64,000 bases of DNA from Reichenbachiella faecimaris. Lineage in GTDB: Bacteria; Bacteroidota; Bacteroidia; Cytophagales; Cyclobacteriaceae. The position numbers and the translations under genes are program-made. The stretch spans positions 496,001 through 560,000 of the forward strand of contig NZ_FWYF01000003.1 of assembly GCF_900176375.1 (NCBI RefSeq), read 5' to 3'. Positions 19,693 through 37,911 of this stretch are shown here, piece by piece. The notes below the pieces were generated by a model that saw only the letters and a program-made list of their open reading frames with translations, was not told where the DNA came from and did no database searches. The stretch's first letter is position 1, and each line of letters opens with the position of its first letter.

Positions 19693-20868
19693 ATGAGAAC
19701 TATGGACAATCGCATACACATATTCGATACAACACTACGTGATGGGGAACAAGTGCCAGGTTGCAGACTAGACACCAAAGGCAAACTCTTGATTGCCGAG
19801 CAATTAGAGCATCTTGGAGTAGACATCATAGAAGCTGGATTTCCTATTTCCAGCCCAGGTGATTTCGAATCTGTTTCAGAGATTTCAAAATTAGTAAAAG
19901 ATACAACCGTTTGTGGTTTGACCCGAGCAGTACAAAAAGATATAGAGTGCGCAGCTGAAGCACTGAAACATGCCAAGCGACCAAGAATCCATACGGGTAT
20001 TGGTACTTCTGATCAGCACGTGTTCACCAAAATCAAAACCACTAGAGAAGATATCATTGCCAGAAGTAAGCAAGCAGTCAAGTGGGCTAAAAATTTTGTA
20101 GATGATGTGGAGTTCTATGCAGAGGACGCCGGAAGAACGGAAAATGCCTTTTTGGCTCAAGTCATTGAAGCTGCTATTTCTGAAGGTGCTACTGTGGTCA
20201 ATATTCCTGATACTACAGGATATTGTCTGCCAGAGGAATATGGTGCTAAGATCAAGTACTTGATAGACAATGTAAAAGGAATTGAAAATGCGATCATTTC
20301 TACCCACTGTCACAATGATCTGGGTTTGGCTACAGCCAATTCGATAGCAGGTATCCAAAACGGTGCGCGTCAGATTGAATGTACCATCAATGGCATAGGA
20401 GAGAGGGCAGGCAACACTTCACTCGAAGAAGTAGTGATGATCATGCGCAAGCACAACTGGATGAAATCTGATACAGAGATAGATGCAACACGTTTGAATG
20501 CAATGTCAAGATTGGTTTCAGAAACCATGAGAATGCCTGTGCAGCCTAACAAGGCAATTGTGGGCAGCAATGCCTTTGCTCACTCTTCGGGTATTCACCA
20601 AGATGGAGTGATCAAAAATAGAGACAATTACGAAATCATTGACCCTGCAGAAGTGGGTGTAGATGAGTCTTCCATTGTGTTGACGGCAAGAAGTGGAAGG
20701 GCTGCATTGAACTACAGAGTGGAAAAACTCAATGTAAATCTTACCAAAGAAGAACTAGAAAAAGTCTATCACGAATTCTTGAAGGTGGCAGACAAACATG
20801 ATGTAGTGGATGACAAATTGCTTAAAAGCATGTTGAGCGAGTATTTGATGACTAATGTAGAAATGTAG
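19693..20868 (+). CDS. leuA: 2-Isopropylmalate synthase lacking the C-terminal regulatory domain
   Basis: LeuA condenses 2-ketoisovalerate with acetyl-CoA, the first leucine step. The 391-residue protein has the HMGL-like barrel: [13 protein letters not shown] at the start (metal Asp and catalytic Arg), [15 protein letters not shown] (metal histidines), [17 protein letters not shown], and [12 protein letters not shown]. It stops after the linker domain; the LeuA allosteric domain that makes other family members about 510-550 residues long is missing, so leucine feedback should not act on this copy. A second homologue with that domain lies at 23119. The start may be the ATG at 19693 or the one at 19702. 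Confidence 0.93.
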
Positions 20869-20871
20869 CAG

Positions 20872-21042
20872 ATGGATAATTACAACAATAAAAATAACCC
20901 AGAAAAAGAAAATCAACAGTTGGAAGCCTTACAAGAGGAGTTTGAAATGGACAAAAAGGCATTGAATGCCAGAGTCTTTTTGGCTTCATCACAATGTAGG
21001 GGAACCAACGAGAACTTTTTGTATGCCTTTGGCTGCGAATAA
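20872..21042 (+). CDS. Possible small protein between leuA and leuC
   Basis: A 56-codon frame starts with ATG 3 bp after the leuA stop codon. The product is hydrophilic: an Asn/Lys/Glu/Gln-rich first half, then a short mixed region with SSQCRGTNENFLYAFGC and two cysteines near the end. I recognise no family. It is followed at once by an intrinsic terminator, so leuA and this frame may form a short transcript. It may also be only a spacer between leuA and leuC. Confidence 0.35.
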   Translation: MDNYNNKNNPEKENQQLEALQEEFEMDKKALNARVFLASSQCRGTNENFLYAFGCE

Positions 21043-21056
21043 AAATTAGGGTAAAC

Positions 21057-21082
21057 GTCATTCAGCAATGAATGGCTTTTTT
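21057..21082 (+). terminator. Intrinsic terminator between leuA and leuC
   Basis: GTCATTCA and TGAATGGC pair around GCAA and are followed by six T residues at 21077-21082. It stands 33 bp before the leuC GTG start, so leuCD-leuA2-leuB expression would depend on read-through or on a promoter I could not find. It could reset the ratio of leuA to the rest of the operon. Confidence 0.6.
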
Positions 21083-21114
21083 AATAAGTAATTAATTAGA
21101 GAATTAGATTAAAC

Positions 21115-22521
21115 GTGGAAGCAAAAACATTATTTGATAAAATCTGGGATGCTCATGTGGTGAGCGAGATCGAGGGGGGGCCAAGTGCCATATATATTGA
21201 TTGTCATTTGATTCACGAAGTGACGAGTCCACAGGCTTTTGCAGGAATTGAGAAAAGAGGTGTGCCAGTGTTTAGACCAGATCAAACATTCGCGACACCT
21301 GATCACAACGTGCCAACTGAAAATCAACACCTACCAATTCAAGATGCTTTATCAAAATTTCAGGTAGATAAACTGACTGAAAATTGTGAAAAGCATGGCG
21401 TGTCACTATATGGATTGAATCACCCTTACCAGGGTGTGGTGCACGTGGTAGGGCCGCAATTGGGATTGACTCAGCCAGGCATGACGATCGTATGTGGTGA
21501 TAGCCACACTTCTACGCATGGCGCTTTTGGTGCGATTGCTTTTGGTATTGGAACCAGCGAGGTAGAAATGGTTCTGGCTTCTCAGTGTATCATGCAGCCT
21601 AAGCCTAAGAAAATGAGAATCACCGTAAATGGTGATTTGGGAGCGGGTGTTACAGCCAAAGATTTAGTGCTTTACATCATTTCAAAAGTGACTGCTGGTG
21701 GCGGAACAGGCTACTTCATTGAGTATGCAGGCTCAGCCTTCGAAAAGCTTTCTATGGAAGGCAGAATGACGGTTTGTAACATGAGTATTGAAATGGGCGC
21801 CAGAGGCGGATTGATTGCTCCAGACGAAACTACCTTCGAATATGTCAGAGGAAGAGAAAATGCACCTAAGGGTGCTGATTTCGACAGGGCTGTTGAAGAA
21901 TGGAGAAAATTGAAAACTGATGATGGTGCTGTATTCGATAAGGAATTGGAATTCGATGCAGCAGACATCGAGCCTATGATCACGTATGGGACTAACCCAG
22001 GTATGGGCACGAAGATCAAATCTTCTATTCCAGCATTGTCTGAGATTGAAAAGTCTGAACAGGAGTCATTCCAAAAGTCTATGAACTATATGGGATTCTC
22101 TGATGGAGATGTATTGGTAGGCAAGCCAATAGACTATGTCTTCGTTGGTAGCTGTACAAATGGACGTATTGAGGATTTAAGAGAAGTTGCGGCCTTTGTG
22201 AAAGGCAAGCAAAAAGCTGAAAACATTACGGCTTGGATTGTGCCAGGTTCTAAACAAGTGGAGAAACAAGCACAGGAAGAAGGTTTGGTAGAAGTACTAG
22301 AAGAGGCAGGTTTCAAATTGAGACAGCCAGGTTGTTCGGCTTGTTTGGCCATGAATGATGATAAGGTGCCAAAAGGGAAATACGCAGTTTCTACCTCAAA
22401 CAGAAACTTTGAAGGTCGACAAGGGCCAGGCTCTCGAACCTTATTGGCTAGCCCATTGACTGCAGCAGCAGTAGCTGTTGCCGGGAAAATTGTAGATCCT
22501 CGTGAACCTGTAAACGTTTAA
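21115..22521 (+). CDS. leuC: 3-Isopropylmalate dehydratase large subunit
   Basis: LeuC carries the [4Fe-4S] cluster of isopropylmalate isomerase and works with LeuD. The 468-residue protein has the aconitase-fold blocks [26 protein letters not shown] and [12 protein letters not shown], and the three cluster cysteines at about 347 (GSCTNGR), 407 and 410 ([10 protein letters not shown]). The GTG at 21115 gives the usual N-terminus. The gene is 4 bp from leuD. Confidence 0.97.
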
Positions 22522-22525
22522 TCAG

Positions 22526-23119
22526 ATGGCATTAGAAAAATTCGAAAAAATAAATTCATCGGCAGTTCCAGTAGCTACCGAAAATGTAGATACAGATCAA
22601 ATCATACCAGCAAGATTCTTGAAGGCAACGACCAGAGAGGGTTTTGGTGAAAACCTTTTCCGTGATTGGAGATACGATGGAGATGGAAATGAAATTCCAG
22701 ACTTTCCATTGAATGACAAGAAATACTCAGGTACCATCTTGGTCGCTGGAAAAAACTTTGGTTGCGGATCGAGTCGTGAGCACGCTGCTTGGGCAGTTCA
22801 TGATTATGGATTCAAAGTAGTAGTATCTAGCTTCTTCGCAGATATTTTTAGAAACAACTGCCTGAACAATGGCGTGTTGCCAGTTCAAGTTTCAACTGAA
22901 TTTGCAGAAAAAGTATTTGCTGCAATTGCAGCCGATCCTAAGACACAATTTGAAGCAGATCTAGATACACAGACATTCACTATTTCTTCTACAGGTGATT
23001 CGACTTCGTTCGAAATCAGTCCATACAAGAAAGAGTGTTTGCAAAATGGATACGACGATATTGATTATCTAATCTCTCTAAGAGATAAAATAGAAGCATA
23101 CGAAGTAGCGCGAGCTTAA
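22526..23119 (+). CDS. leuD: 3-Isopropylmalate dehydratase small subunit
   Basis: The 197-residue swivelling-domain partner of LeuC shows [13 protein letters not shown] near the start and [16 protein letters not shown], where the substrate-binding loop lies, around residues 75-92. It overlaps the start of the next gene by one base (TAATG), which indicates tight coupling in the leuCD-leuA2-leuB unit. Confidence 0.97.
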
Positions 23120-24654
23120 TGAAAGTAGAAATCCTAGATACTACCCTTCGAGATGGCGAACAAACGTCTGGTGTAGCTTTTACTGAAAGTGAAAAGCTAA
23201 CCCTCGCCCAACTTATCATAGATGAGCTGGGCGTGGATCGTTTGGAGATTGCCTCTGCACGTGTGTCAGAAGGTGAATATCGTGGAGCTCAACATATATT
23301 GGATTGGGCGAATAGCCATGGACACGGTCACAAAATCGAAATTCTTGGTTTTGTAGATGATGGCAAATCATTGGACTGGATTAAAGAAGCCAACGGGCAG
23401 GTGATGAACCTGTTGACCAAAGGCTCTTTGAAGCATTGCCAGGCGCAATTGAGGAAGACACCTGAAGAGCACTTGGCAAATATTGCTGAAACTATAGCCT
23501 ACGCAGACGAATTAGGAATAGCCGTCAATGTCTATCTCGAAGATTGGTCTAATGGCATGATCGATTCTCCAGAGTATGTCTACCAAATGGTAGAAGGTCT
23601 GCAAAAAACCAGTGCGAAAAGAATCATGCTACCAGATACGTTGGGCGTACTCAATCATCAAGATGTCAGGAAGTATTGTTCAGAAATGGTGAAACGTTTC
23701 CCAAATGTTCATTTCGACTTTCATGCCCACAATGATTATGATCTTTCTGTAGCCAATGTATTTGAAGCATTGAAAGCTGGAATGAGAGGCATTCATACGA
23801 CATTGAATGGATTGGGAGAAAGAGCTGGAAATGTGCCGCTATCAAGTGTAGTGGGTATCATGAAAGATCACCTCCACTTAGAAGTGAATCTGGATGAAAC
23901 CAAGCTATACAAAGTAAGTAAGGTAGTGGAAGCCTTTTCTGGCGTGCGAATTCCAGCCAACAAACCATTAATTGGTGAATTTGTTTTTACACAAACTTCT
24001 GGCGTGCACGCAGATGGAGACAGCAAAGACAATTTATACCAGACGGCCTTAGAGCCCACTCGATTTGGAAGGTCATACACTTATGCCTTGGGCAAACTTT
24101 CGGGCAAGTCCAACATTCTAAAAAATTTGGAAGAGTTAGGTATCCAATTGTCCAATGATGAGACAAAAAAAGTCACTGAGCGAATCATTGAGTTGGGCGA
24201 CAAAAAGGAAAGCATCACGCAGGAGGATTTGCCATTTATTGTCAATGACGTGTTGGGCAATTCAGTTTCTGATCCTACAGTTGAGATTTTAAATTATTCA
24301 CTGTCAGTGGCAAAAGGATTGAAGCCCTCGGCCACCATTTCGGTAAGTCTTGACGGTATTGTGCAAGAAGAAACAGCACCTGGTGACGGGCAATATGATG
24401 CATTCATGAATGCGTTATTGAAGATCTACGCTACAGTAGGAAGAACCTTCCCGAAGTTGGTGGATTACGAAGTAAGAATACCACCTGGAGGCAATACTGA
24501 CGCATTGGTGATGACGACTATTTCATGGAATTGGAATGGAAAAATATTGAAAACCAAAGGGCTAGACCCTGACCAAACCGTGGCGGCTATTAAGGCGACC
24601 ACACGAATGTTGAACATAGTAGAAAGTAAAGAAGTAAAAGAATATGCAGTTTAA
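23119..24654 (+). CDS. Isopropylmalate/citramalate synthase homologue with regulatory domain
   Basis: The 511-residue protein is a second member of the LeuA family. It has [16 protein letters not shown], a [14 protein letters not shown] metal site, [16 protein letters not shown] and [14 protein letters not shown], then an extra C-terminal domain of about 125 residues (from about [10 protein letters not shown] to [17 protein letters not shown]) that fits the LeuA allosteric dimerisation domain. It may be a leucine-regulated isopropylmalate synthase, or a citramalate synthase (CimA) that makes 2-oxobutyrate precursors from pyruvate. The sequence alone does not decide. It overlaps leuB by 11 bp. 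Confidence 0.85.
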
Positions 24655-25726
24655 AATAGCTACCCTTCCTGGAGACGGAATCGGACCTGAAATAGTAGAA
24701 CAGGCAGTCAAAGCCATGAAATCAGTGGGAGAGGTATTCAACCATGAGTTTGATTTTCAGTACGCAGAAGTAGGTGCTTCAGCGATTGATAAAGTAGGAG
24801 AGCCGTATCCAGAAGCTACACACAATCTATGTATGGAGTCAGATGCCGTGCTATTTGGTGCTATAGGCGACCCTAAATATGACAACGATCCATCTGCTAA
24901 AGTTCGTCCAGAACAAGGTTTGTTGAAAATGAGAAAATTGTTGGGCTTGTATGCCAACATCCGTCCGGTAGTGACTTTTCCTTCCTTGAACTACAAGTCT
25001 CCGTTGAAAGAAGAAATTGTTGAAGGTTCTGATTTTGTTGTAATTCGTGAGTTGACTGGTGGCATCTACTTTGGAGAGCCAAGAGGTAGATCTGAAGATG
25101 GAAATACTGCTTTTGATACTTGTGTTTACAAAAGAGAAGAGGTCGAAAGAATCTTGGAATTGGCGTACGAATATGCGGCTAAGAGAAGAAAACATTTGAC
25201 GGTAGTTGACAAAGCTAATGTTTTGGGAACCTCAAGGTTGTGGAGAGAAGTAGCTCAGAAAATGGAGAAAGAACACGCGGATATCCAGACAGAATATATG
25301 TTCGTGGATAACGCAGCCATGCAGTTGATTCAATGGCCAAAGAAATTTGACGTGATGGTCACTGAGAATATGTTTGGTGATATTCTTTCTGATGAAGCAA
25401 GTGTGATTACAGGCTCTATGGGCTTGTTGCCATCGGCTTCAGTAGGGGTGCATACTTCAGTGTTTGAGCCGATCCACGGATCATATCCTCAGGCCACTGG
25501 AAAGAACATCGCGAATCCTATTGCTACTATTCTTTCAGCGGCTATGTTGTTAGAATCATTGGATCTGATGAAGGAAGCAGAAGCGATAAGAAATGCAGTA
25601 AATCAAGTAATCGAAGAGAGCTACTTGACAGAAGATTTGAATAGTGACAATGCAAAATCTACTACAGAGGTAGGAGATAAAATAGCCGAACTGATTCGTG
25701 CAAATAGCACAGTATTAGAAGGTTAG
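24644..25726 (+). CDS. leuB: 3-Isopropylmalate dehydrogenase
   Basis: LeuB oxidatively decarboxylates 3-isopropylmalate using NAD. The 360-residue protein begins [13 protein letters not shown] and contains [14 protein letters not shown] with the catalytic region, VDKANVL (catalytic lysine), [19 protein letters not shown] (metal aspartates) and [18 protein letters not shown]. It is the last gene of the leu operon; the first ilv attenuator lies 85 bp downstream and its terminator probably also ends leu transcripts. Confidence 0.96.
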
Positions 25727-25781: not shown

Positions 25782-25789
25782 TACCTTTG
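25782..25789 (+). promoter_or_regulatory. -7 promoter box for the ilv leader region
   Basis: TACCTTTG is an exact TAnnTTTG match, 21 bp upstream of the first leader-peptide ATG. A transcript starting just after it would carry both leader peptides and both terminators before ilvE. No clear -33 element was seen. Confidence 0.5.
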
Positions 25790-25810
25790 GAATTCGAAAG
25801 AACAACAAAA

Positions 25811-25879
25811 ATGAAGAACATTATTGTCATAGCATTAGCGATTATTACTGAGGTCACAGTCACCTCAGGTCGGGAATGA
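25811..25879 (+). CDS. Leader peptide 1 of the ilv operon (22 aa)
   Basis: A 22-codon frame, too short for routine gene calling, reads MKNIIVIALAIITEVTV then a short polar end. Nine codons are Ile, Val or Leu (five Ile, three GTC Val, one Leu) and three are Thr. Its stop codon overlaps the 5' strand of an antiterminator (GGGAATGA, 25872-25879) that can pair with TCATTCCC in the terminator stem at 25912-25919. This is the classical arrangement for translation-coupled attenuation: stalled ribosomes allow read-through, and ribosomes reaching the stop free the terminator to form. Confidence 0.8.
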   Translation: MKNIIVIALAIITEVTVTSGRE

Positions 25880-25939
25880 TATGCAATAGTATAAAACGAT
25901 ATTCTAAAGCGTCATTCCCAACAGGATGGCGCTTTTTTT
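25848..25939 (+). promoter_or_regulatory. Transcription attenuator 1 (pause hairpin, antiterminator, terminator)
   Basis: Hairpin CTGAGGT/ACCTCAG (25848-25854 with 25862-25868) lies in the leader frame. Antiterminator: GGGAATGA (25872-25879) with TCATTCCC (25912-25919). Terminator: AAGCGTCATTCC with GGATGGCGCTT and seven T residues, 25907-25939. The terminator 5' arm and the antiterminator 3' arm share the same bases, so the two folds exclude each other. Confidence 0.78.
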
Positions 25940-25953
25940 ATGTGTGCGCCGAA

Positions 25954-25971
25954 GTGAATTGAGAAATTCAC
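25954..25971 (+). other. Hairpin just before leader peptide 2
   Basis: GTGAATT and AATTCAC pair perfectly around a GAGA tetraloop. It ends directly at the GGAGGA sequence (25972-25977) that may be the ribosome binding site of leader 2, so it could tune translation of that leader. Confidence 0.45.
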
Positions 25972-25987
25972 GGAGGATTATACCCAA

Positions 25988-26065
25988 ATGTTGACCCAAA
26001 AAATGATAACGACTATTGTCACAGTATTAGCCATCGTGATTATTACCATTATTGGTGATACGTGA
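25988..26065 (+). CDS. Leader peptide 2 of the ilv-thr cluster (25 aa)
   Basis: A 25-codon frame starts at an ATG 10 bp after GGAGGA (another in-frame ATG is at 26003). It contains the run MITTIVTVLAIVIITIIG. Of 25 codons seven are Ile, three Val, two Leu and six Thr. The stop overlaps GAGAGAGG (26064-26071), which can pair with CCTTTCTC at 26098-26105, the 5' arm of a second terminator. The Thr content fits the downstream ilvA and thrABC genes as well as ilvEDBN. It has the same logic as leader 1, in tandem with it. Confidence 0.82.
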   Translation: MLTQKMITTIVTVLAIVIITIIGDT

Positions 26066-26125
26066 GAGAGGTATATAAGAACTAAATGATTCTAAAGCCT
26101 TTCTCCAATGAGAAAGGTTTTTTTT
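26064..26125 (+). promoter_or_regulatory. Transcription attenuator 2 with strong terminator
   Basis: Terminator: CCTTTCTC (26098-26105) with GAGAAAGG (26110-26117) around CAAT, extended outward by AAAG/TTTT, then an eight-T tract. Antiterminator: GAGAGAGG (26064-26071) with the same CCTTTCTC arm. The terminator ends 46 bp before the ilvE ATG. Confidence 0.82.
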
Positions 26126-26171: not shown

Positions 26172-27062
26172 ATGTATTACAACGAAAACTCGATCCTTTT
26201 CCTAGACGGACAGTGGGTAAAAGCATCAGAAGCAAAAGTTGACTTGTTTAGCCAGACCATGCACTATGGCAATGGCGCCTTTGAAGGTATCCGCTCGTAC
26301 GCTGGTGCAGCCGGACCCAATGTCTTCAAGGCCAAGGAACATTTCGAAAGACTAAAATACTCAGCAGAAAAAATGGGTATCAAAATCAGCCAGTCCGTCG
26401 ATGAGTTGGTCAAAGTCTCTTATGAGTTATTGGATAGAAATGGATTGAGCAATGCTTACATCCGCCCAATGGTTTACCTCGGAGCCAATATGAAATTGCT
26501 TTCTTGTGGAGAAGTTCATGTGATGATGGCCGCTTGGGATTGGCCTCCATACCTAGGTGACGAAGCCTTGAAAGTAATGATTTCCTCCGTGGAAAGACCA
26601 AATCCAAAATCCATTCCTGTAGACGCCAAGGTAACTGGCAACTACACCAATTCGATCATGGCATCTAACGAAGCCAAGCGAAATGGTTATGACGAAGCCT
26701 TGTTGTTGGATTCAGAAGGGTATGTTGCTGAAGGCTCTGGTCAGAACTTCTTCTTTGTGAAGGACGATGTGATCTATACGCCACCACTTGGAAACATCCT
26801 ACCTGGAATCACCAGGGCGACCATCATTGAGTATGCCATGGAATTGGGATACCCAGTAGTAGAAAAGCTATTCAAGCCTGAAGAAATGAAAGGTGCTGAA
26901 GTAGCCTTCTTCACGGGTACGGCAACAGAAGTGGCAAGTATCAAATCGATTGACGATATGGAATTTGCTGCAGATTGGAAAGAAACTGTCGCTTATGATT
27001 TGTTCTTGATGTATCGTCAGCGTGTCAGCAATGCCGAACTGAGTGAATTCACTTTGGTTTGA
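26172..27062 (+). CDS. ilvE: Branched-chain amino acid aminotransferase
   Basis: IlvE performs the last step of valine, isoleucine and leucine synthesis. The 296-residue fold-type IV PLP enzyme has MHYGNGAFEGIRSY near residue 34, YIRPMVYLG, the PLP lysine in VDAKVTGNYTNSIMA (about 155), DEALLLDSEGYVAEGSGQNFF and FFTGTATEV. It is the first structural gene after the tandem attenuators and is separated from ilvD by 112 bp. Confidence 0.96.
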   Translation: MYYNENSILFLDGQWVKASEAKVDLFSQTMHYGNGAFEGIRSYAGAAGPNVFKAKEHFERLKYSAEKMGIKISQSVDELVKVSYELLDRNGLSNAYIRPMVYLGANMKLLSCGEVHVMMAAWDWPPYLGDEALKVMISSVERPNPKSIPVDAKVTGNYTNSIMASNEAKRNGYDEALLLDSEGYVAEGSGQNFFFVKDDVIYTPPLGNILPGITRATIIEYAMELGYPVVEKLFKPEEMKGAEVAFFTGTATEVASIKSIDDMEFAADWKETVAYDLFLMYRQRVSNAELSEFTLV

Positions 27063-27174
27063 TTGGAACCAAGAGCCAAGATATAAGAGCGAAGAAAAAA
27101 TATCAATTAGAAAAAAGAGAATATCAAAAGGCAAGCAATCAAGTTATGATTCTTGTCTCTAGTATCAAAATAGT

Positions 27175-28845
27175 ATGAGTTTAAATAAATACAGCAAAAC
27201 GATCACTCAAGACCCTTCACAGCCGGCATCACAGGCGCAGTTGTACGCCACTGGCTTGACTGAGGAGGACATGAAAAAAGCACAAGTTGGGATCGTGAGT
27301 ACAGGATTTGAAGGCAACCCTTGCAACATGCACCTCAACATTCTTTCACACCAAGTGAAAAAAGGTGTTCGTGAAGCTGATCTGGTAGGATTGATCTTTC
27401 ACACCATAGGTGTAAGCGATGGGATATCCAATGGTACAACTGGGATGAAATACTCTTTGATCTCTAGAGATATCATTGCTGATTCTATCGAAACTGTAGT
27501 TAATGCACAGTTTTATGATGCAGTGGTTCCTGTAGTCGGATGTGATAAAAATATGCCTGGTTCTATCATGGCTTTGGGTCGATTGAATCGACCAGGACTG
27601 ATGGTATATGGCGGTACAGTAAGACCAGGTAAATGGAAGGGTGAAGACTTGAATATCGTTTCGGCATTTGAGGCTTATGGCCAAAAATTAGCCAACAATA
27701 TCTCGGATGAAGATTATAATGGCATCATCAAAAACTCTATTCCTGGCCCTGGAGCTTGTGGTGGAATGTATACGGCCAATACGATGTCTTCGGCTATCGA
27801 AGCCATGGGTATGAGTTTACCGTCTTCTTCTTCTAATCCTGCGGAAAGTGAAGACAAAAAACAAGAGACCTATAGAGTAGGACAAGCCGTAAGGCACTTG
27901 CTTGAGCAAGACTTGCGTCCGAGAGATATCATGACTAAAGATGCATTCGAAAATGCCATTCGGATCATAATGATTTTGGGTGGGTCTACCAATGCTGTGC
28001 TTCATTTGATCGCCATGGCGAAATCTGTAGATGTACCGATTGGTCTAGACGATTTCCAAAGAATCTCTGACAGTACGCCGTTTATTGCTGACTTGAAACC
28101 TAGTGGTAAATATTTGATGGAAGATCTTCATTTTGTGGGCGGTGTTCCAGCTGTGATGAAAGCTTTATTGCACGAAGGATACTTGCACGGCGACTGTATG
28201 ACTGTGACTGGCAAGACCTTGGCGGAAAATATTGAAGAAGGACCGTCATTGAAAGAAGGACAAAAGATCATTCACTCTTTCTCTGATCCGATTAAACCAT
28301 CTGGTCATCTACAAATCTTGTATGGCAATCTGGCACCTGAGGGGTCAGTGGCAAAAATTACTGGTAAGGAAGGTGAGTATTTCGAAGGACCAGCGAGATG
28401 TTATGATGATGAATTCGAAGCCATCATTGGGATTGGTAAAGAGGTGAAGAAAGGAGAAGTGATCGTGATCAGACAATCTGGACCTAAAGGGGCTCCGGGT
28501 ATGCCAGAAATGTTGAAGCCAACCAGTGCGGTAATGGGCGCAGGACTAGGTAAAGATGTGGCATTGATTACGGATGGCCGATTCTCAGGTGGGTCTCACG
28601 GTTTTGTGGTAGGTCACGTCACGCCAGAATCTCAAGAAGGAGGCCCATTGGCGTTGGTGAAAGATGGTGACATCATTAGCATAGATGCGGTGAAAAACGA
28701 AATGAACCTTAAAATATCTGATGAAGAAATGGCAGCAAGAAAAGCCGCTTGGAAGCAACCAGCATACAAAGCCAAAAAAGGAATATTAAAAAAATATATC
28801 AATCAAGTAGCATCAGCTTCAGAGGGCTGTGTAACTGACGAATAA
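27175..28845 (+). CDS. ilvD: Dihydroxyacid dehydratase
   Basis: IlvD dehydrates dihydroxyacids to the 2-keto acids of valine and isoleucine using an Fe-S cluster. The 556-residue protein is full length. It has FEGNPCNMH and [14 protein letters not shown] (cluster cysteines and catalytic metal region), [20 protein letters not shown] with the third cysteine, [12 protein letters not shown], and the [17 protein letters not shown] block with the active-site serine region near the end. The start is an ATG at 27175. Confidence 0.96.
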
Positions 28846-28856
28846 TTTAGACGACA

Positions 28857-28894
28857 GTCAATAGTCTATGGTCTGTGGACTATAGACTATTGAC
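28857..28894. repeat. Long palindrome between ilvD and ilvB
   Basis: Perfect 13-base arms GTCAATAGTCTAT and ATAGACTATTGAC continue inward (GGTC/GACT) to a TGTG loop. No T tract follows, so it is not a standard terminator. The rest of the 120-bp gap has AATCTTGAATC-like direct repeats up to the ilvB start. Confidence 0.65.
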
Positions 28895-28965
28895 AATAAA
28901 GTAATACTAGATTCTTGAACCAAGTTGATAAAAAGTCTTGAATCTAAAATCTTGAATCTATCAAA

Positions 28966-30705
28966 ATGAACACATCGACACTAGAATTGGAAGAAAAACC
29001 AAAACAAGGCACGAAACGATTGACAGGGTCTCAGGCATTGCTTGAGTGCTTGCTTGCCGAAGGCGTGGAAACGCTTTTTGGATATCCAGGTGGAGCCATC
29101 ATGCCAGTCTATGATGAATTATATAAGTACGCAGACCGACTCAATCATATCTTGGTTCGTCATGAGCAAGGTGCTGCACATGCCGCGCAAGGATTTGCAA
29201 GGGTCAACGGGAAAACGGGAGTTTGTATGGCTACTTCAGGGCCAGGCGCTACCAATTTGATCACAGGCATAGCAGATGCTCAAATTGATTCTACGCCTAT
29301 GGTTGCCATCACAGGTCAGGTGTTTTCTCATCTTTTGGGTACGGATGCCTTTCAGGAGACAGATGTAATTGGGATTTCTATGCCAGTGACTAAGTGGAAT
29401 TTTCAGGTAACTAAAGCTGAAGAAATACCTCAAGCTATTGCTAAGGCATTTTACATCGCTAACACGGGTAGACCAGGGCCAGTTTTGATTGATATCACAA
29501 AGGATGCACAAGTAACGGAATTTGATTTTCCAGTATATGAGAAGTGTACAAAAATCAGGAGCTACCATCCATTCCCCATTTTAGAGCGATCTAAAGTGAC
29601 GGAGGCCGCAGCACTGATCAATCAAGCAAAAAAACCATTGATGCTTGTGGGACATGGTGTCTTGATCTCACAAGCGCAAAGTGAGCTTTTGGCTTTCGCT
29701 GAAAAGGCAGAAATTCCTATGGCATCTACACTATTAGGCTTATCTGCTGTACCCAACAAACATCCACTATACGTAGGTATGTTGGGCATGCATGGAAACT
29801 ATGGTCCTAATTTGAAGACCAACGAAGCTGATGTGATCATTGCTGTTGGTATGCGATTCGATGATCGAGTGACAGGCGACTTGAGCAGATACGCCAAACA
29901 AGCCAAGATTATTCATATCGAAATTGACCCTGCTGAGGTAGATAAAAATGTGAAAACAGACGTGGCTATCGTTTGTGATGCAAAAGCGGCTTTGATTCAA
30001 CTGGAAAAAGAAATTGCTTCAAATAGCCATAAAGATTGGCTTCAGGAATTTGCAGATTGTGATGCCAAGGAATTTGAGAAAGTAGGGAAACTAGATCTTC
30101 ATTCTGAAAAGGACGAGATCAAAATGGCTGAAGTAATCAAGTTGATTTCTGACCAGTCTGAAGGAAAAGCCATTGTGGTGACTGACGTTGGACAACATCA
30201 AATGATTGCCAGTAGATACTATGCATTTGATGATACCAGATGCAATGTGACCTCTGGTGGATTGGGTACCATGGGATTCTCATTACCAGCCGCTATGGGA
30301 GCTAAAGTGGCTCGCCCAGAAAAGCAGGTGATTGCTGTGATAGGTGATGGTGGTTTTCAAATGACTATCCAAGAGCTTGGTACTATCTTTCAAAGCAACA
30401 TTGGAGTGAAAATATTGATTTTGAATAACCAATTCTTGGGCATGGTGCGCCAATGGCAAGAAATGTTTTTTGACAAGAGATACGCCCATACCGAAATGAT
30501 AAACCCTGATTTTCAATTGATATCAAAGGGTTATGGCATTCCTTGCAACAAAGTAACAAGCAGAGATGAATTGGCAGTGGCAGTGGATGTATTCTTGGAG
30601 CACGAAGGGCCTTATTTACTGGAGGTGTGTGTAGAGCAGGAAGGGAATGTATTCCCGATGGTTCCTACTGGAGCATCTGTAGCAGAAGTAAAATTGGAAA
30701 GATAG
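28966..30705 (+). CDS. ilvB: Acetolactate synthase large subunit
   Basis: This is the TPP-dependent catalytic subunit that makes acetolactate and acetohydroxybutyrate. The 579-residue protein has the catalytic glutamate in [16 protein letters not shown] (about residue 66), [17 protein letters not shown], the central FAD/Rossmann domain with [12 protein letters not shown], and the TPP motif [12 protein letters not shown] followed by [18 protein letters not shown]. It is 5 bp upstream of ilvN. Confidence 0.97.
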
Positions 30706-30710
30706 TAATC

Positions 30711-31271
30711 ATGGAAGCAGAAAAACAATATACCATATCGGTCTTGACCGAAGACAGAGCGGGTTTACTCAACCACTTGACTGTTATTCTAAACAGAAGA
30801 AAGATCAATATTGATTCACTCAATGTATCTACGACTGAGGTGGCTGGGATCAGTAGGTTTACTATTGTGATTACCACCACACGCGACAGTGCGGACAATT
30901 GTTGTAAACAATTCAGAAAACTCATAGAAGTATTGGGTGCTTTTGTCTACGAAGAAAACGAGATTTATTACCAGGAGATCGCCTTGTATAAGGTGCCTAC
31001 TTCCGTATTCCTCAATGGAAATAAAATCGAAACACTCGTGAGAAACAATGGCGCAAGAATCTTAGTGATCGAAGAAGACCATATTATCATTGAGAAGACT
31101 GGCCATATAGCTGATACCCACGATCTTTACAAAAAACTAGAGCCATTAGGCCTACTGGAATTTGTAAGGTCAGGTCGAGTAGCGATTTCCAAATCTAAAC
31201 GCAAAACAGAAGCGTACATCAAAGAATTGGAAGAGACCAAGTCGAATCTATTGAGTATAAAAGACTATTAA
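30711..31271 (+). CDS. ilvN: Acetolactate synthase small (regulatory) subunit
   Basis: The 186-residue protein has an N-terminal ACT domain (YTISVLTEDRAGLLNHLTVI, residues about 7-80) and a C-terminal domain typical of the larger ilvN/ilvH type. It should confer valine feedback on IlvB. The ATG at 30711, five bases after the ilvB stop, was chosen over starts inside ilvB. Confidence 0.94.
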   Translation: MEAEKQYTISVLTEDRAGLLNHLTVILNRRKINIDSLNVSTTEVAGISRFTIVITTTRDSADNCCKQFRKLIEVLGAFVYEENEIYYQEIALYKVPTSVFLNGNKIETLVRNNGARILVIEEDHIIIEKTGHIADTHDLYKKLEPLGLLEFVRSGRVAISKSKRKTEAYIKELEETKSNLLSIKDY

Positions 31272-31280
31272 AATTTAAAA

Positions 31281-31353
31281 CGTCATTGCGAGGAGGGACG
31301 ACGAAGCAATCTTAATAATTGATGAGATTACTTCGCTAAAGCTCGCAATGACG
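31281..31353. repeat. Palindromic intergenic repeat between ilvN and the aminotransferase gene
   Basis: Outer arms CGTCATTGCGAG and CTCGCAATGACG are perfect complements; inner arms ACGAAGCAATCT and GATTACTTCGC pair with mismatches. This sequence type (CGTCATTGCGAGG...CGAAGCAATC) is known as a dispersed repeat in many bacteria. Confidence 0.75.
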
Positions 31354-31368
31354 TAAAATAAGACAACA

Positions 31369-32694
31369 ATGCGCCAAGTACTACTACATGAAGGATCCAA
31401 TCAGCTAGACTATGAAATCAGAGACATAGTCAAGAAAGCTGAGGCTTTGCAAGCACTGGGTCAGCGGATCTATTGGGAAAATATAGGAGACCCCATTCTC
31501 AAGCACGCCGTAGTGCCTGCGTGGATCAAAGAAATTTTGACCAATTTGGTCAATCAGAATTCCACTTATGGCTATTGCCATTCCAAAGGTGTGTTGGAGA
31601 CGAGACAATATTTAGCTGAGAAAAACAACAAAAGGGGTGGCGTGCAAATCACATCTGATGATGTCTTGTTTTTCAATGGATTAGGTGATGCGATTGGTAA
31701 ATTGTATCAATTCCTCAATCCTTATTCGCGTGTGATTGGACCTTCACCTGCCTACTCTACGCATTCGGCACTGGAAGCTGCACACTCCAATAAGGAGCCG
31801 CTGACTTACAATCTCGATCCAGAAAACAACTGGTACCCAGATTTGGACGACTTGCGTCTAAAAGTCAAATACAATCCGAATATTGTTGGCATATTGATCA
31901 TCAATCCGGATAATCCTACAGGCATGGTATATCCAGAGGAGTATTTGATAAAAATCGTTGAGATCGCCAAAGAGTTCAATTTATTCATAGCCAGTGATGA
32001 AATTTATACGAACATCATTTACAATGATACAAAGACCAAAGCTTTGGCTGAAGTCTTGGGAGATGTGCCTGGCATTGCCTTAAAGGGTATTTCTAAGGAC
32101 TGTCCTTGGCCAGGTAGCCGTTGTGGGTGGATGGAATTTTATAACCGAGAGGCAGACGAGGAATTCAATAAGTATTGCGCAACATTAGAAAATGCCAAGA
32201 TGGTAGAGGTATGCTCCACTACGTTACCACAAAAGGCTCTACCATTGATTCAGGAACATCCTAACTATCAGAAGTATCTGGCTCAGCGTAGAACCGAAAT
32301 CGCAGAACGAAGTGAGATCATTTCGCAGTATTTGAAAGACCTGCCTTATGTCACCTTCAACAAGACGAATGGAGCTTTCTACAATACTATTGTTTTTAAG
32401 GACGGCGTATTGAATAATAATCAAGTGTTGCAAATAAGTAATCTTGAAATCAAACAACTAGCAGAATCATGGGTGGAGCGTGTAGGAGAACCAGATAAAA
32501 GATTTGTTTATTACTTACTAGCCGCCAAGGGCGTCTGTGTGGTACCATTATCTTCTTTTCAGTCTGAATTGAGAGGATTTAGAATCACCCTACTCGAAGA
32601 AAATAAAGAAGTCTTGCACGAGACTTTTAGCAAGATCGCTGCTGCGATCAATGAATTTTGCACCTCAGATGTAAAGGAAGAAGTGGTAGCTTAA
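31369..32694 (+). CDS. PLP-dependent class I/II aminotransferase in the ilv cluster
   Basis: The 441-residue protein is a fold-type I aminotransferase with IYWENIGDPI near the start, SPAYSTHSALEAA, IINPDNPTGMVYPEE, ASDEIYTNIIYN, and the PLP lysine in KGISKDCPWPGSRCGWMEF. The KDCPWPGSRCGW block resembles the AlaA/aspartate-type group. It lies where ilvC often sits in Bacteroidota ilv operons and is only 9 bp before ilvA, so it probably serves amino acid synthesis (for example alanine-valine transamination), but the substrate is not known. Confidence 0.85.
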   Translation: MRQVLLHEGSNQLDYEIRDIVKKAEALQALGQRIYWENIGDPILKHAVVPAWIKEILTNLVNQNSTYGYCHSKGVLETRQYLAEKNNKRGGVQITSDDVLFFNGLGDAIGKLYQFLNPYSRVIGPSPAYSTHSALEAAHSNKEPLTYNLDPENNWYPDLDDLRLKVKYNPNIVGILIINPDNPTGMVYPEEYLIKIVEIAKEFNLFIASDEIYTNIIYNDTKTKALAEVLGDVPGIALKGISKDCPWPGSRCGWMEFYNREADEEFNKYCATLENAKMVEVCSTTLPQKALPLIQEHPNYQKYLAQRRTEIAERSEIISQYLKDLPYVTFNKTNGAFYNTIVFKDGVLNNNQVLQISNLEIKQLAESWVERVGEPDKRFVYYLLAAKGVCVVPLSSFQSELRGFRITLLEENKEVLHETFSKIAAAINEFCTSDVKEEVVA

Positions 32695-32703
32695 GCATAG
32701 AAA

Positions 32704-33972
32704 ATGGAAGTAGCAGAATTAGAATTGATGATACCGACTTACGATGGGATACAAGCCGCCAAGGTGAAGCTCAACCATGTAGTTGTGCGCACACCACTCA
32801 TGAAAAATCTCAATTTTTCTGAGCGATTTCAAGCAGAAGTTTCTTTCAAAAGAGAGGATCTTCAAGCGGTTCGATCTTATAAGATCAGAGGGGCATACAA
32901 CAAAATTTCTAGTCTCAACGAAATCGAGCGTCAAAACGGAATCGTTTGTGCCAGTGCTGGCAATCACGCCCAAGGGGTGGCTTACTCTTGTCAGAAACTA
33001 GGTATCAAAGGGACGATCTTCATGCCAAGCGTCACGCCCAAACAAAAGATTGGTCAGGTTAGAATGTTTGGCAAAGACATGGTGGAAGTGGTATTGATTG
33101 GAGACACTTTTGATGATGCCTATAATGAAGCCATGACATACTGTGACAAGCACAAGGCTACGTTCGTGCACCCATTTGATGACGAAAAAGTGATTGAAGG
33201 ACAGGGTACTGTAGCTCTTGAAATATTAGAAGATGCTGATGGGCCTATAGATTATTTATTTGTTCCAATTGGCGGAGGAGGCTTGGCAGCAGGAGCCATT
33301 ACTGTACTGAAAACCTTGTCTCCCAATACCAAGGTCATTGGTGTAGAGCCAACGGGCGCACCAGCCATGAAGGAATCCATCACTCAGGGAACCAATATCG
33401 TTTTGCCCAAAATAGATACTTTCATTGATGGAGCAGCCGTGAGACAGGTGGGAGCAAAGACGTTGGATATTTGCAAAGAAGGTTTGGATGATATCATTCT
33501 GGTACCAGAAGGCAAGGTGTGTTCTATGATTTTACAATTGTATAATCAGGAGGCCATTGTCGTGGAGCCAGCAGGTGCTTTAAGCTTGGCAGCTTTGGAT
33601 TTGTATAAGGAGAAGATCAAAGGCAAAAACGTAGTCTGCGTCATCAGTGGTAGCAATAATGACATTACCCGAACAGAAGAAATTAAAGAACGATCCTTAT
33701 TGTACGAAGGTATCAAGCACTATTTTATTATTCGCTTTCCCCAAAGGGCAGGAGCTCTAAGGGAGTTTTTAACTGAAGTGCTTGGCCCTGGAGATGATAT
33801 TGTTCATTTCGAATACTCGAAAAAGAACAGCAGGGAAAAAGGCCCTGCATTGATAGGATTGGAATTACAAAATAAGGATAGTTTGAAGGAGCTATTCGAA
33901 AAACTAGAAGCCAAAAGTTTTGCATTTGAATATCTGAATGAAAAACCAGATTTGATGCAGTATTTGGTTTAA
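32704..33972 (+). CDS. ilvA: Threonine ammonia-lyase (biosynthetic)
   Basis: IlvA makes 2-oxobutyrate from threonine for isoleucine. The 422-residue protein has the PLP lysine in FKREDLQAVRSYKIRGAYNK, CASAGNHAQGVAYSC, the PLP phosphate loop PIGGGGLAAG and VISGSNNDITRTEE. A single C-terminal ACT-like domain (about residues 345-420) gives it the short biosynthetic form. The ATG at 32704 follows the aminotransferase by 9 bp; an ATG nine codons later is possible. Confidence 0.94.
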   Translation: MEVAELELMIPTYDGIQAAKVKLNHVVVRTPLMKNLNFSERFQAEVSFKREDLQAVRSYKIRGAYNKISSLNEIERQNGIVCASAGNHAQGVAYSCQKLGIKGTIFMPSVTPKQKIGQVRMFGKDMVEVVLIGDTFDDAYNEAMTYCDKHKATFVHPFDDEKVIEGQGTVALEILEDADGPIDYLFVPIGGGGLAAGAITVLKTLSPNTKVIGVEPTGAPAMKESITQGTNIVLPKIDTFIDGAAVRQVGAKTLDICKEGLDDIILVPEGKVCSMILQLYNQEAIVVEPAGALSLAALDLYKEKIKGKNVVCVISGSNNDITRTEEIKERSLLYEGIKHYFIIRFPQRAGALREFLTEVLGPGDDIVHFEYSKKNSREKGPALIGLELQNKDSLKELFEKLEAKSFAFEYLNEKPDLMQYLV

Positions 33973-33977
33973 TCCCA

Positions 33978-34058
33978 CCGTCATCACCCGTGTTTATCCG
34001 GGTGATCTGACAGAAGATGGCGCCGAAGCGGATTACCCGGATAAAACCGGGTAACGAC
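33978..34058. repeat. Palindromic intergenic repeat between ilvA and thrA
   Basis: The arms CGTCATCACCCG...TTTATCCGGGTGATC and GATTACCCGGATAAA...CGGGTAACGACG pair with a few mismatches. It contains GGCGCCGAAGCG in the centre and fills 80 of the 200 bp between ilvA and thrA. A second small inverted repeat AGACTC/GAGTCT lies at about 34128-34153. Confidence 0.65.
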
Positions 34059-34172
34059 GAAGAAATAAATAATTCGAGCCCCAGCTTAGTTTGTTGTAAG
34101 CGAAGGTTCAAAACTTAAATAAATAAAGACTCTGGTCTAATTTCCTGAGTCTAACGTCTAAAATCTTATATA

Positions 34173-36617
34173 ATGAAAGTGTTGAAATTTGGAGGTACAT
34201 CCGTAGGTACCCCGGATAATCTGAGAGTGGTAAAGGACATCTTATCGGCTGGAAAGGAAGAAAAACAAGTGTGCGTCGTATCAGCCTTTGGAGGTGTGAC
34301 CAACCTGCTCCATGAGTGTAGTGATTTGGCAGCTGCAGGCGACGAATCCTACCAGGGGCTATTCGCTAAAATAGAGGCCAGACATCTGGATACTGTCAAA
34401 GAGTTGCTGCCAGTGAAAAGCCAATCTGGTACACTTAGCAAAACCAAAATCTTACTTAATGATCTGGAAGATATCATGAAAGGTATCTTTCTGATTGGTG
34501 AACTTTCGCCAAGATCTCTGGATCGCGTATTAGGGATGGGAGAGATCTTATCATCTAATATCATTGTCGACTTTCTGAATTCTGAAGGATTGACCACAGA
34601 TTGGGGAAATACTGGTGCGATGATCAAAACAGATAGCACTTTCAATAATGCGATTGTTGACTTTTCCAGTACCAACCAAAACATAAAAGACTTCTTCAAG
34701 TCTTCAGCTGACTTAGTGATATGTCCAGGATTCGTTTCTTCCAATCAGGATAATGTAAATACCACTTTAGGACGTGGCGGGTCTGATTATACGGCAGCGA
34801 TTTTAGCGGCAGCTTTGGAGGTAGATACATTCGAAATCTGGACAGATGTGAGTGGCATGATGACTTCCGATCCACGAGCAGTTTCCTCTGCTCACCCAAT
34901 CGAAAAAATTTCCTATCAGGAAGCCATGGAGCTGTCACACTTTGGGGCTAAGGTCATTTATCCGCCCACCATACAGCCGGCATTGGACAAGAACATTCCG
35001 ATTAAGATCAAAAATACTTTTAGGCCTCAGGATGCAGGTACTACTATTAGTGCTGACTCAAACGGCTCCAAGCAGTTTGTAAAAGGCCTGTCGAGTGTCA
35101 AAAATATTGCATTGCTCAACTTGTCCGGCAGTGGTATGATTGGTATTCCAAAATTCTCTTTCCGTTTGTTCAAGGCTTTATCTGAAGCCAAAGTGAATGT
35201 GATTATAATCACTCAGGCATCTTCCGAACACTCCATCTGTGTGGGTATTGATGGCAATGATGTGGAGGCTAGCAGAGCTGCCATTGCCGAAGAATTTCAA
35301 TTTGAATTGAGCTTGAATAAGGTCAATCCACTAGAGGTGGAAGAACATTTGGCCATTGTCGCACTGGTAGGCGACAAGATGCGTGATCACGTCGGAATCA
35401 GTGGTCAGATGTTTGCTGCATTGGGTGAAAATGGCGTAAATATCAAAGCCATAGCTCAAGGCTCTTCCGAACGGAATATTACGGTAGTGATTCAGGAGCG
35501 TCATTTGAAGAAATCACTCAACGTGTTGCACGAGAGTTTCTTCTTGTCAGAGAAAAAACGGATCAACTTATTCCTAGTGGGAATAGGTAATGTAGGTGGT
35601 ACACTGATCCAGCAGATAGCCAAGCAGCAAGAATATTTGAGTGAAAACGAGCATGTGGATTTACGAATTGTAGGCTTGGCCAATAGCAAAAAAATGTACT
35701 TTGATGAGGAAGGTATTGACTTGTCGAAGTGGAAAGACTTGCTTTTGAATGGTACTTTAAAGATGGAGAATGCGGCCTTCATTCAATCCATTCAGAATAT
35801 GAACCTGCGCAACAGTGTGTTTGTGGATAATACCGCAAGTGCAGAGATAGCAGGGTTGTACAATGGCATTTTGAGTAAAAATATTTCTGTAGTTACACCA
35901 AATAAAATTGCCTGTGCTTCTTCTTATGAAAATTATCAGGAACTGAAAAATACAGCTCGCGAATACAAGTCTAAGTTTTATTATGAGACGAACGTGGGTG
36001 CTGGTTTGCCAGTGATCACTACCCTCAACGATCTGATTAAAAGTGGAGATCGAGTCAAAAAAATTGAAGCAGTACTTTCTGGAAGTTTAAATTTTATTTT
36101 CAACAACTTCAAGCCAGGTGTGAAATTCGTAGACATAGTTAAGCAGGCTGGAGAAGAGGGTTATACCGAACCAGATCCAAAAATTGACTTGAGTGGTGTG
36201 GATGTGATGCGGAAGATTTTGATTCTCATTCGCGAGTGTGGTGTTGAAGCAGAACTTTCTGATATCACTGCTGACTCATTCATTCCAGCGGATTGCATGA
36301 AGACCAAAACCAATGAAGAGTTCTACGCCAAATTAGAAGCGCATGAAGAGCATTTTCAGTCATTAGTAAAACAGGCTGAAGACAACAATGCGCGATTGAA
36401 GGTGGTGGCTACTTATGACGATGGTAAAGCATCTGTAGGACTAAAGGAAATCACCAAATCCCACCCATTTTATATACTAGAAGGAAGTGACAATATTGTA
36501 TTGTTCAATACCAATAGATATGCTGATCAACCCTTGGTGATTAAAGGTGCTGGAGCAGGGGCTGCTGTGACAGCCATGGGTATATTTGCTGACATCATGC
36601 GAATTGCAAATAGCTAA
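34173..36617 (+). CDS. thrA: Bifunctional aspartate kinase / homoserine dehydrogenase I
   Basis: The 814-residue fusion performs the first and third steps from aspartate to threonine. Residues 1 to about 285 are the aspartokinase (LKFGGTSVGTPDNL, RGGSDYTAAILAAAL, WTDVSGMMTSDPRA), residues about 310-455 hold two ACT domains, and residues about 462-814 are homoserine dehydrogenase (VGIGNVGGTLIQQI for NAD, VTPNKIACAS, NVGAGLPVITTL, GYTEPDPKIDLSGVDVMRK). It heads thrA-thrB-(DUF1330)-thrC; thrB starts 3 bp after it. Confidence 0.97.
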   Translation: MKVLKFGGTSVGTPDNLRVVKDILSAGKEEKQVCVVSAFGGVTNLLHECSDLAAAGDESYQGLFAKIEARHLDTVKELLPVKSQSGTLSKTKILLNDLEDIMKGIFLIGELSPRSLDRVLGMGEILSSNIIVDFLNSEGLTTDWGNTGAMIKTDSTFNNAIVDFSSTNQNIKDFFKSSADLVICPGFVSSNQDNVNTTLGRGGSDYTAAILAAALEVDTFEIWTDVSGMMTSDPRAVSSAHPIEKISYQEAMELSHFGAKVIYPPTIQPALDKNIPIKIKNTFRPQDAGTTISADSNGSKQFVKGLSSVKNIALLNLSGSGMIGIPKFSFRLFKALSEAKVNVIIITQASSEHSICVGIDGNDVEASRAAIAEEFQFELSLNKVNPLEVEEHLAIVALVGDKMRDHVGISGQMFAALGENGVNIKAIAQGSSERNITVVIQERHLKKSLNVLHESFFLSEKKRINLFLVGIGNVGGTLIQQIAKQQEYLSENEHVDLRIVGLANSKKMYFDEEGIDLSKWKDLLLNGTLKMENAAFIQSIQNMNLRNSVFVDNTASAEIAGLYNGILSKNISVVTPNKIACASSYENYQELKNTAREYKSKFYYETNVGAGLPVITTLNDLIKSGDRVKKIEAVLSGSLNFIFNNFKPGVKFVDIVKQAGEEGYTEPDPKIDLSGVDVMRKILILIRECGVEAELSDITADSFIPADCMKTKTNEEFYAKLEAHEEHFQSLVKQAEDNNARLKVVATYDDGKASVGLKEITKSHPFYILEGSDNIVLFNTNRYADQPLVIKGAGAGAAVTAMGIFADIMRIANS

Positions 36618-36620
36618 ACT

Positions 36621-37544: not shown

Positions 37545-37548
37545 TGTC

Positions 37549-37851: not shown

Positions 37852-37911
37852 GTATCAGATAGCCCAGCAATGTAAAATCTTGATCATTGAATTTAAAATT
37901 TTGAATCAGAA

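Follow-up and report, generated by a model that had tools for sequence, protein, structure and literature searches.

The ilvGMEDA and thrABC operons of enterobacteria are governed by classical leader-peptide attenuators. The locus analyzed here lies in a 64,000-nucleotide stretch of DNA (hereafter the window) from a Reichenbachiella-like genome, whose IlvE shares 81% identity with its counterpart in R. agariperforans DSM 26134. It resembles the enterobacterial systems in its short ORFs rich in cognate codons, its 1:2, 2:3 and 3:4 pairings, and the placing of an intrinsic terminator before the first gene, but differs in presenting two such units in series and in belonging to another phylum. The Rfam family Bacteroid-trp (RF01692), a Trp leader-peptide attenuator, has been described from the phylum of the window, and a leader of that kind exists in the same genome: a trpE-like leader, MKMINNNTNWWWSILQAKCDRN (L124 1521-1589, contig C7; the downstream gene was named by eye), carries three Trp codons and a terminator, and scores 45.3 bits on RF01692, slightly below its gathering score (49). 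The sequence-only reading of the window regarded leader-peptide attenuation as best known from Proteobacteria, which is fair as history, but with this trpE leader in the genome such control is not foreign here. The window leaders differ from Bacteroid-trp, which is single and directed to Trp, in being double and rich in Ile and Val. At gathering thresholds, no Rfam family matched anywhere in the window, Bacteroid-trp (49 bits) included, nor was Bacteroid-trp among the 13 weak Rfam matches of the window at lax thresholds. Thr_leader (RF00506) reached 16.6 bits in the window and 33.3 bits in the best of eight relatives, with a gathering score of 55; the lax-threshold matches to this family and to GibS, discussed below, lie far below gathering and were rejected.

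Double leaders have been described in other settings. The Salmonella mgtCBR leader holds two ORFs that answer different signals, ATP and proline, with an additive effect; passages of the source (PMC3641672) treat it as a singular case, in which tandem attenuators respond to different signals, and present it, by comparison with metE, as a leader without two intrinsic terminators. Like mgtCBR, the window encodes one leader RNA with two leader ORFs and separate alternative structures for each; unlike mgtCBR as those passages depict it, its leaders are broadly alike in codons and a separate terminator follows each of them, so that passage through the two should multiply rather than add. T-boxes also occur in tandem, the tRNA being sensed directly by the RNA. 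Tandem riboswitches with two terminators are described for B. clausii metE (PMC3641672). Both arrangements place two sensing units in one leader, as here, but the ligand or tRNA is sensed by RNA and a leader peptide is absent. At ermB, two leader peptides act on one gene (PMC8274638); this feature is shared with the window, but the erythromycin-induced attenuation described there is translational and does not consist of transcription termination by amino-acid supply. Closest in codon content are the actinobacterial ilvB leaders, ORFs with runs of Ile, Val and Leu codons that precede ilv genes and overlap a terminator hairpin (PMC1262725), to which the C. glutamicum ilvBNC attenuator (PMC11857589) may be added. 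The runs are common to the ilvB leaders and the window; the phylum and the overlap of ORF and hairpin are not, and the passages on the ilvB leaders do not mention a tandem form. In Bacteroidota, short ORFs resembling leader peptides are reported in B. thetaiotaomicron 5' UTRs (PMC7366714). Among the papers listed by a literature search, none was found to describe leader peptides of ilv genes in this phylum, whether as one unit or as two; two comparative studies, Vitreschak 2004 and Lopatovskaya 2010, may hold some.

Two leader units upstream of ilvE

All genes concerned lie on the forward strand. The upstream neighbours leuA, a small ORF, leuC, leuD, a cimA-like gene and leuB (19693-25726) stand outside the gates; the two leader units follow, and beyond them lie ilvE, ilvD, ilvB, ilvN, a PLP aminotransferase gene, ilvA, thrA, thrB and thrC (26172-39204), assigned by NCBIfam matches. 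No ilvC was found among the cluster genes scanned with NCBIfam (26172-39204), and the best KARI_N match of the genome is on another contig (C7:1363146-1363655). The order from ilvE to thrC is kept in five of six other genus genomes compared. The exception, G152, keeps it as far as ilvA, thrABC being absent from the stretch examined, and is the sole such genome in the genus; in G068, thrA, thrB and thrC are all on the same strand. Four genus genomes (G148, G151, G152 and G068), in whose upstream stretch leuA alone of these leu genes was found, keep the units before ilvE, which argues that the units belong to ilvE and not to leuB.

Unit 1 is preceded by TACCTTTG (25782-25789), a candidate promoter of the leader transcript that matches TAnnTTTG, the Bacteroidota -7 promoter consensus (PMC7366714); the element is intact in the window, G150, G149 and G152 and degenerate in the other four genus members. 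Leader ORF 1, MKNIIVIALAIITEVTVTSGRE (25811-25879), runs from an ATG at 25811, kept in 8/8 genus genomes, to a stop codon at 25877-25879 (the mechanically called ORF opens at a TTG upstream of this ATG), and 12 of its 22 residues are Ile, Val, Leu or Thr. Segment 1 (25820-25842) pairs with 25869-25890 in the minimum-energy fold as the 1:2 protector, and the duplex between ORF body and stop region has an energy of -25.3 kcal/mol. The antiterminator arm (segment 2), GGGAATGA (25872-25879), contains the stop codon and pairs with TCATTCCC (25912-25919). This pairing holds in 100% of cells in seven distinct genus sequences, with one compensatory change from G-C to A-U, and its duplex energy of -15.2 kcal/mol was reached by 1/1000 mononucleotide shuffles of the stop region. 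Intrinsic terminator 1 (25906-25939), found by the consensus scan and composed of the 3:4 hairpin (25906-25935) and a U tract, is situated 180 nt 3' of leuB; 12/12 of its pairs are kept in the seven distinct sequences.

The full frame of leader 2, MLTQKMITTIVTVLAIVIITIIGDT, opens at an ATG at 25988 and stops at 26063-26065, with Ile, Val, Leu or Thr at 18 of 25 residues. The genus alignment places the conserved start at an internal ATG (26003), which is GTG in four relatives; the start column is thus ATG or GTG in the seven genus genomes with unit 2, and leader ORF 2 becomes MITTIVTVLAIVIITIIGDT (26003-26065), with 16 such residues of 20. The two short Ile/Val/Leu/Thr-rich frames of 22 and 25 codons noted from the sequence alone were both found, the second being reduced to 20 codons by its conserved start. 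Antiterminator arm 2, GAGAGAGG (26064-26071), overlaps the stop codon and pairs with CCTTTCTC (26098-26105), and its duplex energy, -13.1 kcal/mol, was reached by 6/1000 mononucleotide shuffles of the stop region. In seven genus sequences, 94.5% of cells are paired, with no compensatory changes; two positions are unpaired in G149 and one in G148. When the arm is slid by two columns, 87.8% of cells still pair because the stretch is repetitive. Terminator 2 (26094-26125), a hairpin (26094-26121) followed by a U tract, has 93.5% of cells paired and one compensatory change. In both units, the arms overlap the stop codons and pair with the 5' arms of the following terminators, just as first described, and a 1:2 protector is predicted in the minimum-energy folds of both.

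Eight genus genomes were searched, and both units are present in seven. The exception, G152, has unit 1 only and nests inside the genus on the IlvE tree, which fits a loss of unit 2. Leader, arm and terminator of both units are intact or nearly so over IlvE identities of 80-100%. Covariation, proposed as a check and followed within the genus, is thin: the pairings are kept, but only two of the four helices show a compensatory change, one pair apiece, and shuffles often reach as much (79/500 and 88/500). With so little variation, genus covariation was dropped as a proof of structure.

The flanking DNA has features of its own. The small ORF between leuA and leuC (MDNYNNKNNPEKENQQLEALQEEFEMDKKALNARVFLASSQCRGTNENFLYAFGCE, 20872-21042), followed by what by eye is a terminator-like hairpin, has no Pfam or NCBIfam match and occurs in 2/98 genomes of the family, both in the Reichenbachiella genus. 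One homologue lies directly after leuA in R. agariperforans (L002 2318-2485) and another is found in G068; ORF and homologues share the tail FLxSSQCRGTxxNxLYAFGxE. The gap between ilvN and the aminotransferase gene holds a long imperfect palindrome (31281-31353) that resembles a dispersed repeat, and a stretch similar to it by eye lies between terminator 2 and ilvE in G150. At G149 (L097 5091-8389), the identity of leuC, leuD and leuB to their window counterparts is only 66-68%, against 94% for leuA and ilvE, and cimA gave no match; replacement may therefore have affected the leu genes adjoining the attenuators in this genome.

Recurrence and anatomy of the units in Bacteroidota

The consensus terminator scan of the window yielded three sites, with 2.8 expected by shuffling. 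Since the scan was no better than shuffles, the whole unit was tested, defined as a short ORF with many Ile, Val, Thr or Leu codons and, after it, a terminator hairpin with a U tract. A strict rule found at least one unit in 63/101 regions before ilvE, and two units in 13/101, against 12/1485 control segments; a loose rule found a unit in 89/101 ilvE loci against 113/1485 segments. These controls, of similar length and mostly coding, come from elsewhere in the same loci and from the other strand, and three of the 12 strict matches are a single match that appears in three copies of related loci. The fairest control, the upstream regions themselves read on the opposite strand, gave 3/99 under the strict rule and 19/99 under the loose one. 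In 40 later loci, scanned with detector thresholds set on the first locus set and left unchanged, a unit was present in 29 by a geometry rule, which adds the stop-to-terminator distance, and in 18 by the strict rule; dinucleotide shuffles gave 0/320 under either.

The 101 loci include two repeats (L002/L098 and L057/L101), one locus with 65 nt upstream (L014), and three from outside Bacteroidota (L050, L051, L053). The 40 later loci comprise 29 new genomes and 11 hand-picked family matches, 12 family matches having been left out; four are repeats (L128/L018, L139/L023, L140/L026, L152/L041), leaving 36 new. The sample is biased towards IlvE proteins close to that of the window (family, 63/148 at 1e-60; class, 34/296 at 1e-80). 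Among the Bacteroidota sampled in this way, a putative single unit, made of an Ile/Val-rich leader and a terminator before ilvE, is common, and the evidence that such predicted units go beyond chance comes from the comparison across loci. The detector picks ORFs rich in Ile, Val, Leu and Thr, so overall richness is partly selected, but the placing of codons and the bias of Ile over Leu are not.

The pairing of each terminator with its own stop region was evaluated by permutation in 60 non-redundant units, L002 and L057 being dropped from the set. The mean energy of the terminator 5' arm against its own stop region was -10.25 kcal/mol, compared with -8.10 for permuted arms (sd 0.29; lowest of 5000, -9.21). 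Five placements of the analyzed interval were tried: the signal was strongest in the one that begins 24 nt before the stop and ends 14 nt after it (z -7.6), gave z values of -5.9, -5.6 and -3.1 in overlapping intervals, and was absent between 62 and 24 nt before the stop (z -0.6, same 60 units). The mean signal is clear and many single units are weak, the own arm ranking among the best 10% of arms in only 17/60 units (6 expected). The 1:2 pairing averaged -13.86 against -11.55 kcal/mol for permuted partners, with 0/3000 permutations as low; permutation between loci leaves some effect of base composition, most of all in this 1:2 test.

Codon placing adds a second regularity. The frequency of Ile plus Val peaks at 0.72 at codon 12 before the stop and is 0.07-0.13 in the last three codons; allowing for the size of a ribosome footprint, the control codons sit where a stalled ribosome would leave the arm free. 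In 88/91 units, 16-41 nt separate the stop from the terminator arm, although the detector accepted anything from -3 to 110. On this anatomy, the predicted geometry is that of classical attenuation: a short ORF rich in cognate codons, a terminator before the first gene and a stop-region arm exclusive with the terminator were all found, and the 1:2 pairing stands as a prediction.

Sensed amino acids and tandem arrangement

The ratio of Ile to Leu is 2.38 in the 60 units and 0.76 in 129 control matches, and each leader core of the window has one Leu codon, which makes Leu sensing unlikely. Ile plus Val is the theme that the leaders appear to sense in common. Clusters with thrA, thrB and thrC on the same strand within ~15 kb were found in 18/60 genomes with downstream DNA (11/52 outside the genus). 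Leaders before thrABC average 1.81 Thr codons, against 0.86 without it (n=18 and 38, raw p = 0.001); of the 60 loci whose downstream genes are known, four had no unit under the rule and fell out of this test, and the downstream view of G372 spans 6 kb. Outside the genus, p = 0.08 (11 and 37 loci), and phylogenetically independent pairs number only six, too small a set to decide, so the association is kept as a hint, and the idea of Thr sensing tied to thrABC is suggestive. In the window, leader 2 has six Thr codons (five from the conserved start) and leader 1 has three; leader 2 has one in G149, one in G068 and three in G151. Both leaders of the genus carry long Ile/Val runs and some Thr, their codon make-up being broadly alike, which speaks for one gate doubled and against an AND gate with two signals. 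The best candidates for gates that sense differently are L063 and L064 (G009 and G090), where, before ilvE, a Val/Leu-rich first leader (MVSEYVLSGSLIDVLVRT; MVIKYVLVYLLSKVLVWTQG) precedes a second one richer in Ile. Thus, of the amino acids first proposed as signals, Ile and Val are retained, Leu is disfavoured and Thr is suggestive only.

The promoter element points to an arrangement in series. A TTG together with TAnnTTTG occurs within 110 nt before the first leader in 12/79 loci (shuffle mean 1.05, maximum 4), and TAnnTTTG alone in 19/79 (shuffle mean 8.9). Between terminator 1 and leader 2, TAnnTTTG is absent in 16/16 tandem loci, several of these gaps being only a few bases long. In 11/16 tandem loci, no more than 30 nt separate the first U tract from the opening of the second leader, and in G150 the frame of leader 2 opens 12 nt past the start of that tract. 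As no TAnnTTTG lies between the gates, action in series is probable: most likely, leader 2 is reached only via read-through of gate 1.

Hand-checked labels assign tandem units to 21/131 loci, seven in the genus and 14 outside, and a single unit to 84/131. The 21 count L130, whose second terminator is weaker (-9.1), and exclude the possibly tandem L016 and L062. On an IlvE tree of these 131 loci, the tandem label changes 12 times, at least six of them on well-supported branches; a slower tree of 95 rows has seven changes, at least five on supported branches, with one false row among 17 tandem rows (L100, where the supposed upper leader, far upstream, is a frame due to chance, leaving unit 1 only by reading). 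In both trees, the changes count gains and losses together. The larger tree drops the repeats L002, L057, L128, L139, L140 and L152, L014 with its little upstream DNA, and the non-Bacteroidota L050, L051 and L053; the smaller drops L002, L057, L014, L050, L051 and L053. The 40 later loci contribute six two-unit rows, among which L152 is a repeat of L041 and L150 has an upper frame that resembles the tail of a coding gene.

The origin of the pair was addressed by comparing leaders 1 and 2 within each genome. In the seven genus genomes, their similarity was reached by codon shuffles in 0, 7, 14, 0, 0, 1 and 2 of 300 cases, and by leaders of other genera in 4, 4, 14, 1, 0, 1 and 0 of 75; the likeness is weak in G149 (14/300 and 14/75). 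Because the leaders are more alike than codon shuffles in most genus genomes, the two units are probably a duplication, and the claim that they are independent copies, from which chance had been judged very unlikely, is doubtful. A duplication origin for all tandem pairs was rejected, as the likeness is confined to Reichenbachiella: eight other tandem loci show no clear closeness, theirs being reached by 14 to 72 of 89 leaders from other genera.

Proposed mechanism and rival readings

We consider it very probable that two classical ribosome-mediated attenuators stand in series before ilvE. As originally proposed for the genes ilvEDBN, ilvA and thrABC beyond, this arrangement is supported by conservation in the genus, by the exclusive pairings and by the gap free of TAnnTTTG. 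With the leaders and the make-up and placing of their codons, the terminators and these features in the sequence, the pair of Ile/Val attenuators appears real, conserved and known in kind, and its doubled form recurs in the phylum. From this anatomy we infer how it would function. The transcript would start just before leader 1. When Ile- and Val-tRNA, and perhaps Thr-tRNA, are charged, a translating ribosome would reach the stop codon of leader 1 and cover the arm, the terminator would form, and transcription would end at about 25939. When charged tRNA is short, the ribosome would stall among the Ile/Val codons before it reaches the arm; the arm would then be free to pair with the terminator's 5' strand, and the polymerase would read through, to meet the same test at leader 2 before ilvE. 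If leader 1 is untranslated, its own 5' half is predicted to pair with the arm, favouring termination. Since both gates must be passed, read-through would come close to multiplying two similar responses, with a lower leak and a steeper rise.

Several other readings of the same DNA were weighed. A true AND gate, in which the two gates sense different signals, such as Ile/Val and Thr or Leu, would draw on the surplus of Thr in leader 2 of the window, on the Val/Leu-rich first leaders of L063 and L064, and on the higher Thr count before thrABC clusters; the Thr difference is gone or reversed in relatives, the association weakens outside the genus, independent pairs are too few to tell, and both genus leaders carry long Ile/Val runs. 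This reading is improbable, and the two-amino-acid AND gate was dropped as the main one after leader compositions were compared. Of the 'AND-type or steeper switch' suggested earlier, what stands is the plainer half, a steeper and less leaky gate for a single signal. It is unlikely, to a lesser degree, that only one gate works and the tandem layout as such is functionless, whether because the second gate is a duplicate, recent or in decay, or because the first is a relic. The resemblance of the genus copies to a duplication, the absence of unit 2 from G152, nested in the genus, the imperfect antiterminator of leader 2 in G149 and G148, and the preponderance of single loci (84 against 21 of 131) speak for a lone working gate; the near-intact state of both units in 7/8 genus genomes, across IlvE identities of 80-100%, and the recurrence of tandem pairs in other lineages speak against it.

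Two readings dispense with attenuation altogether. Terminator 1 might simply end the leu transcript, terminator 2 being a spacer and the ORFs chance frames in AT-rich DNA, as its position 180 nt 3' of leuB and the chance-level terminator scan would allow. The units, however, stay with ilvE when leuA, not leuB, is the upstream neighbour, they occur in 0/320 shuffles and 12/1485 segments elsewhere, and this account gives no reason for the placing of Ile and Val codons or for own-arm pairing; we regard it as very improbable. Just as hard to credit is the idea that the region yields a small RNA acting in trans and akin to GibS of Bacteroides (RF04182). In the window, a weak full-length match covers unit 1 (34.3 bits, E 0.005) and another lies over unit 2 (18 bits), while unit 1 of G149 has one of its own (38.8 bits, E 0.09); these matches prompted the idea and are not independent, as the window and G149 are close relatives; the scores are far below the gathering score of 115, and none of seven other loci searched, including G068 of the genus, matched at E <= 0.5.

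Two classical attenuators in series thus remain the preferred account, and they would extend ribosome-mediated ilv attenuation to many lineages of a phylum in which, among the papers listed by our search, no description of it was found. Loci with one gate, with two gates, and with one gate missing in a two-gate genus form a natural comparison set for the effect of a second gate on leak and steepness. More tentatively, and short of holding it probable, we propose that doubling of a same-signal gate is a recurrent, selectable sharpening of branched-chain operon control in Bacteroidota. If this is true, passage through the two gates, each coupling transcription to translation, would multiply, and lineages would tune steepness by the gain and loss of gates, as the missing second gate of G152 suggests.
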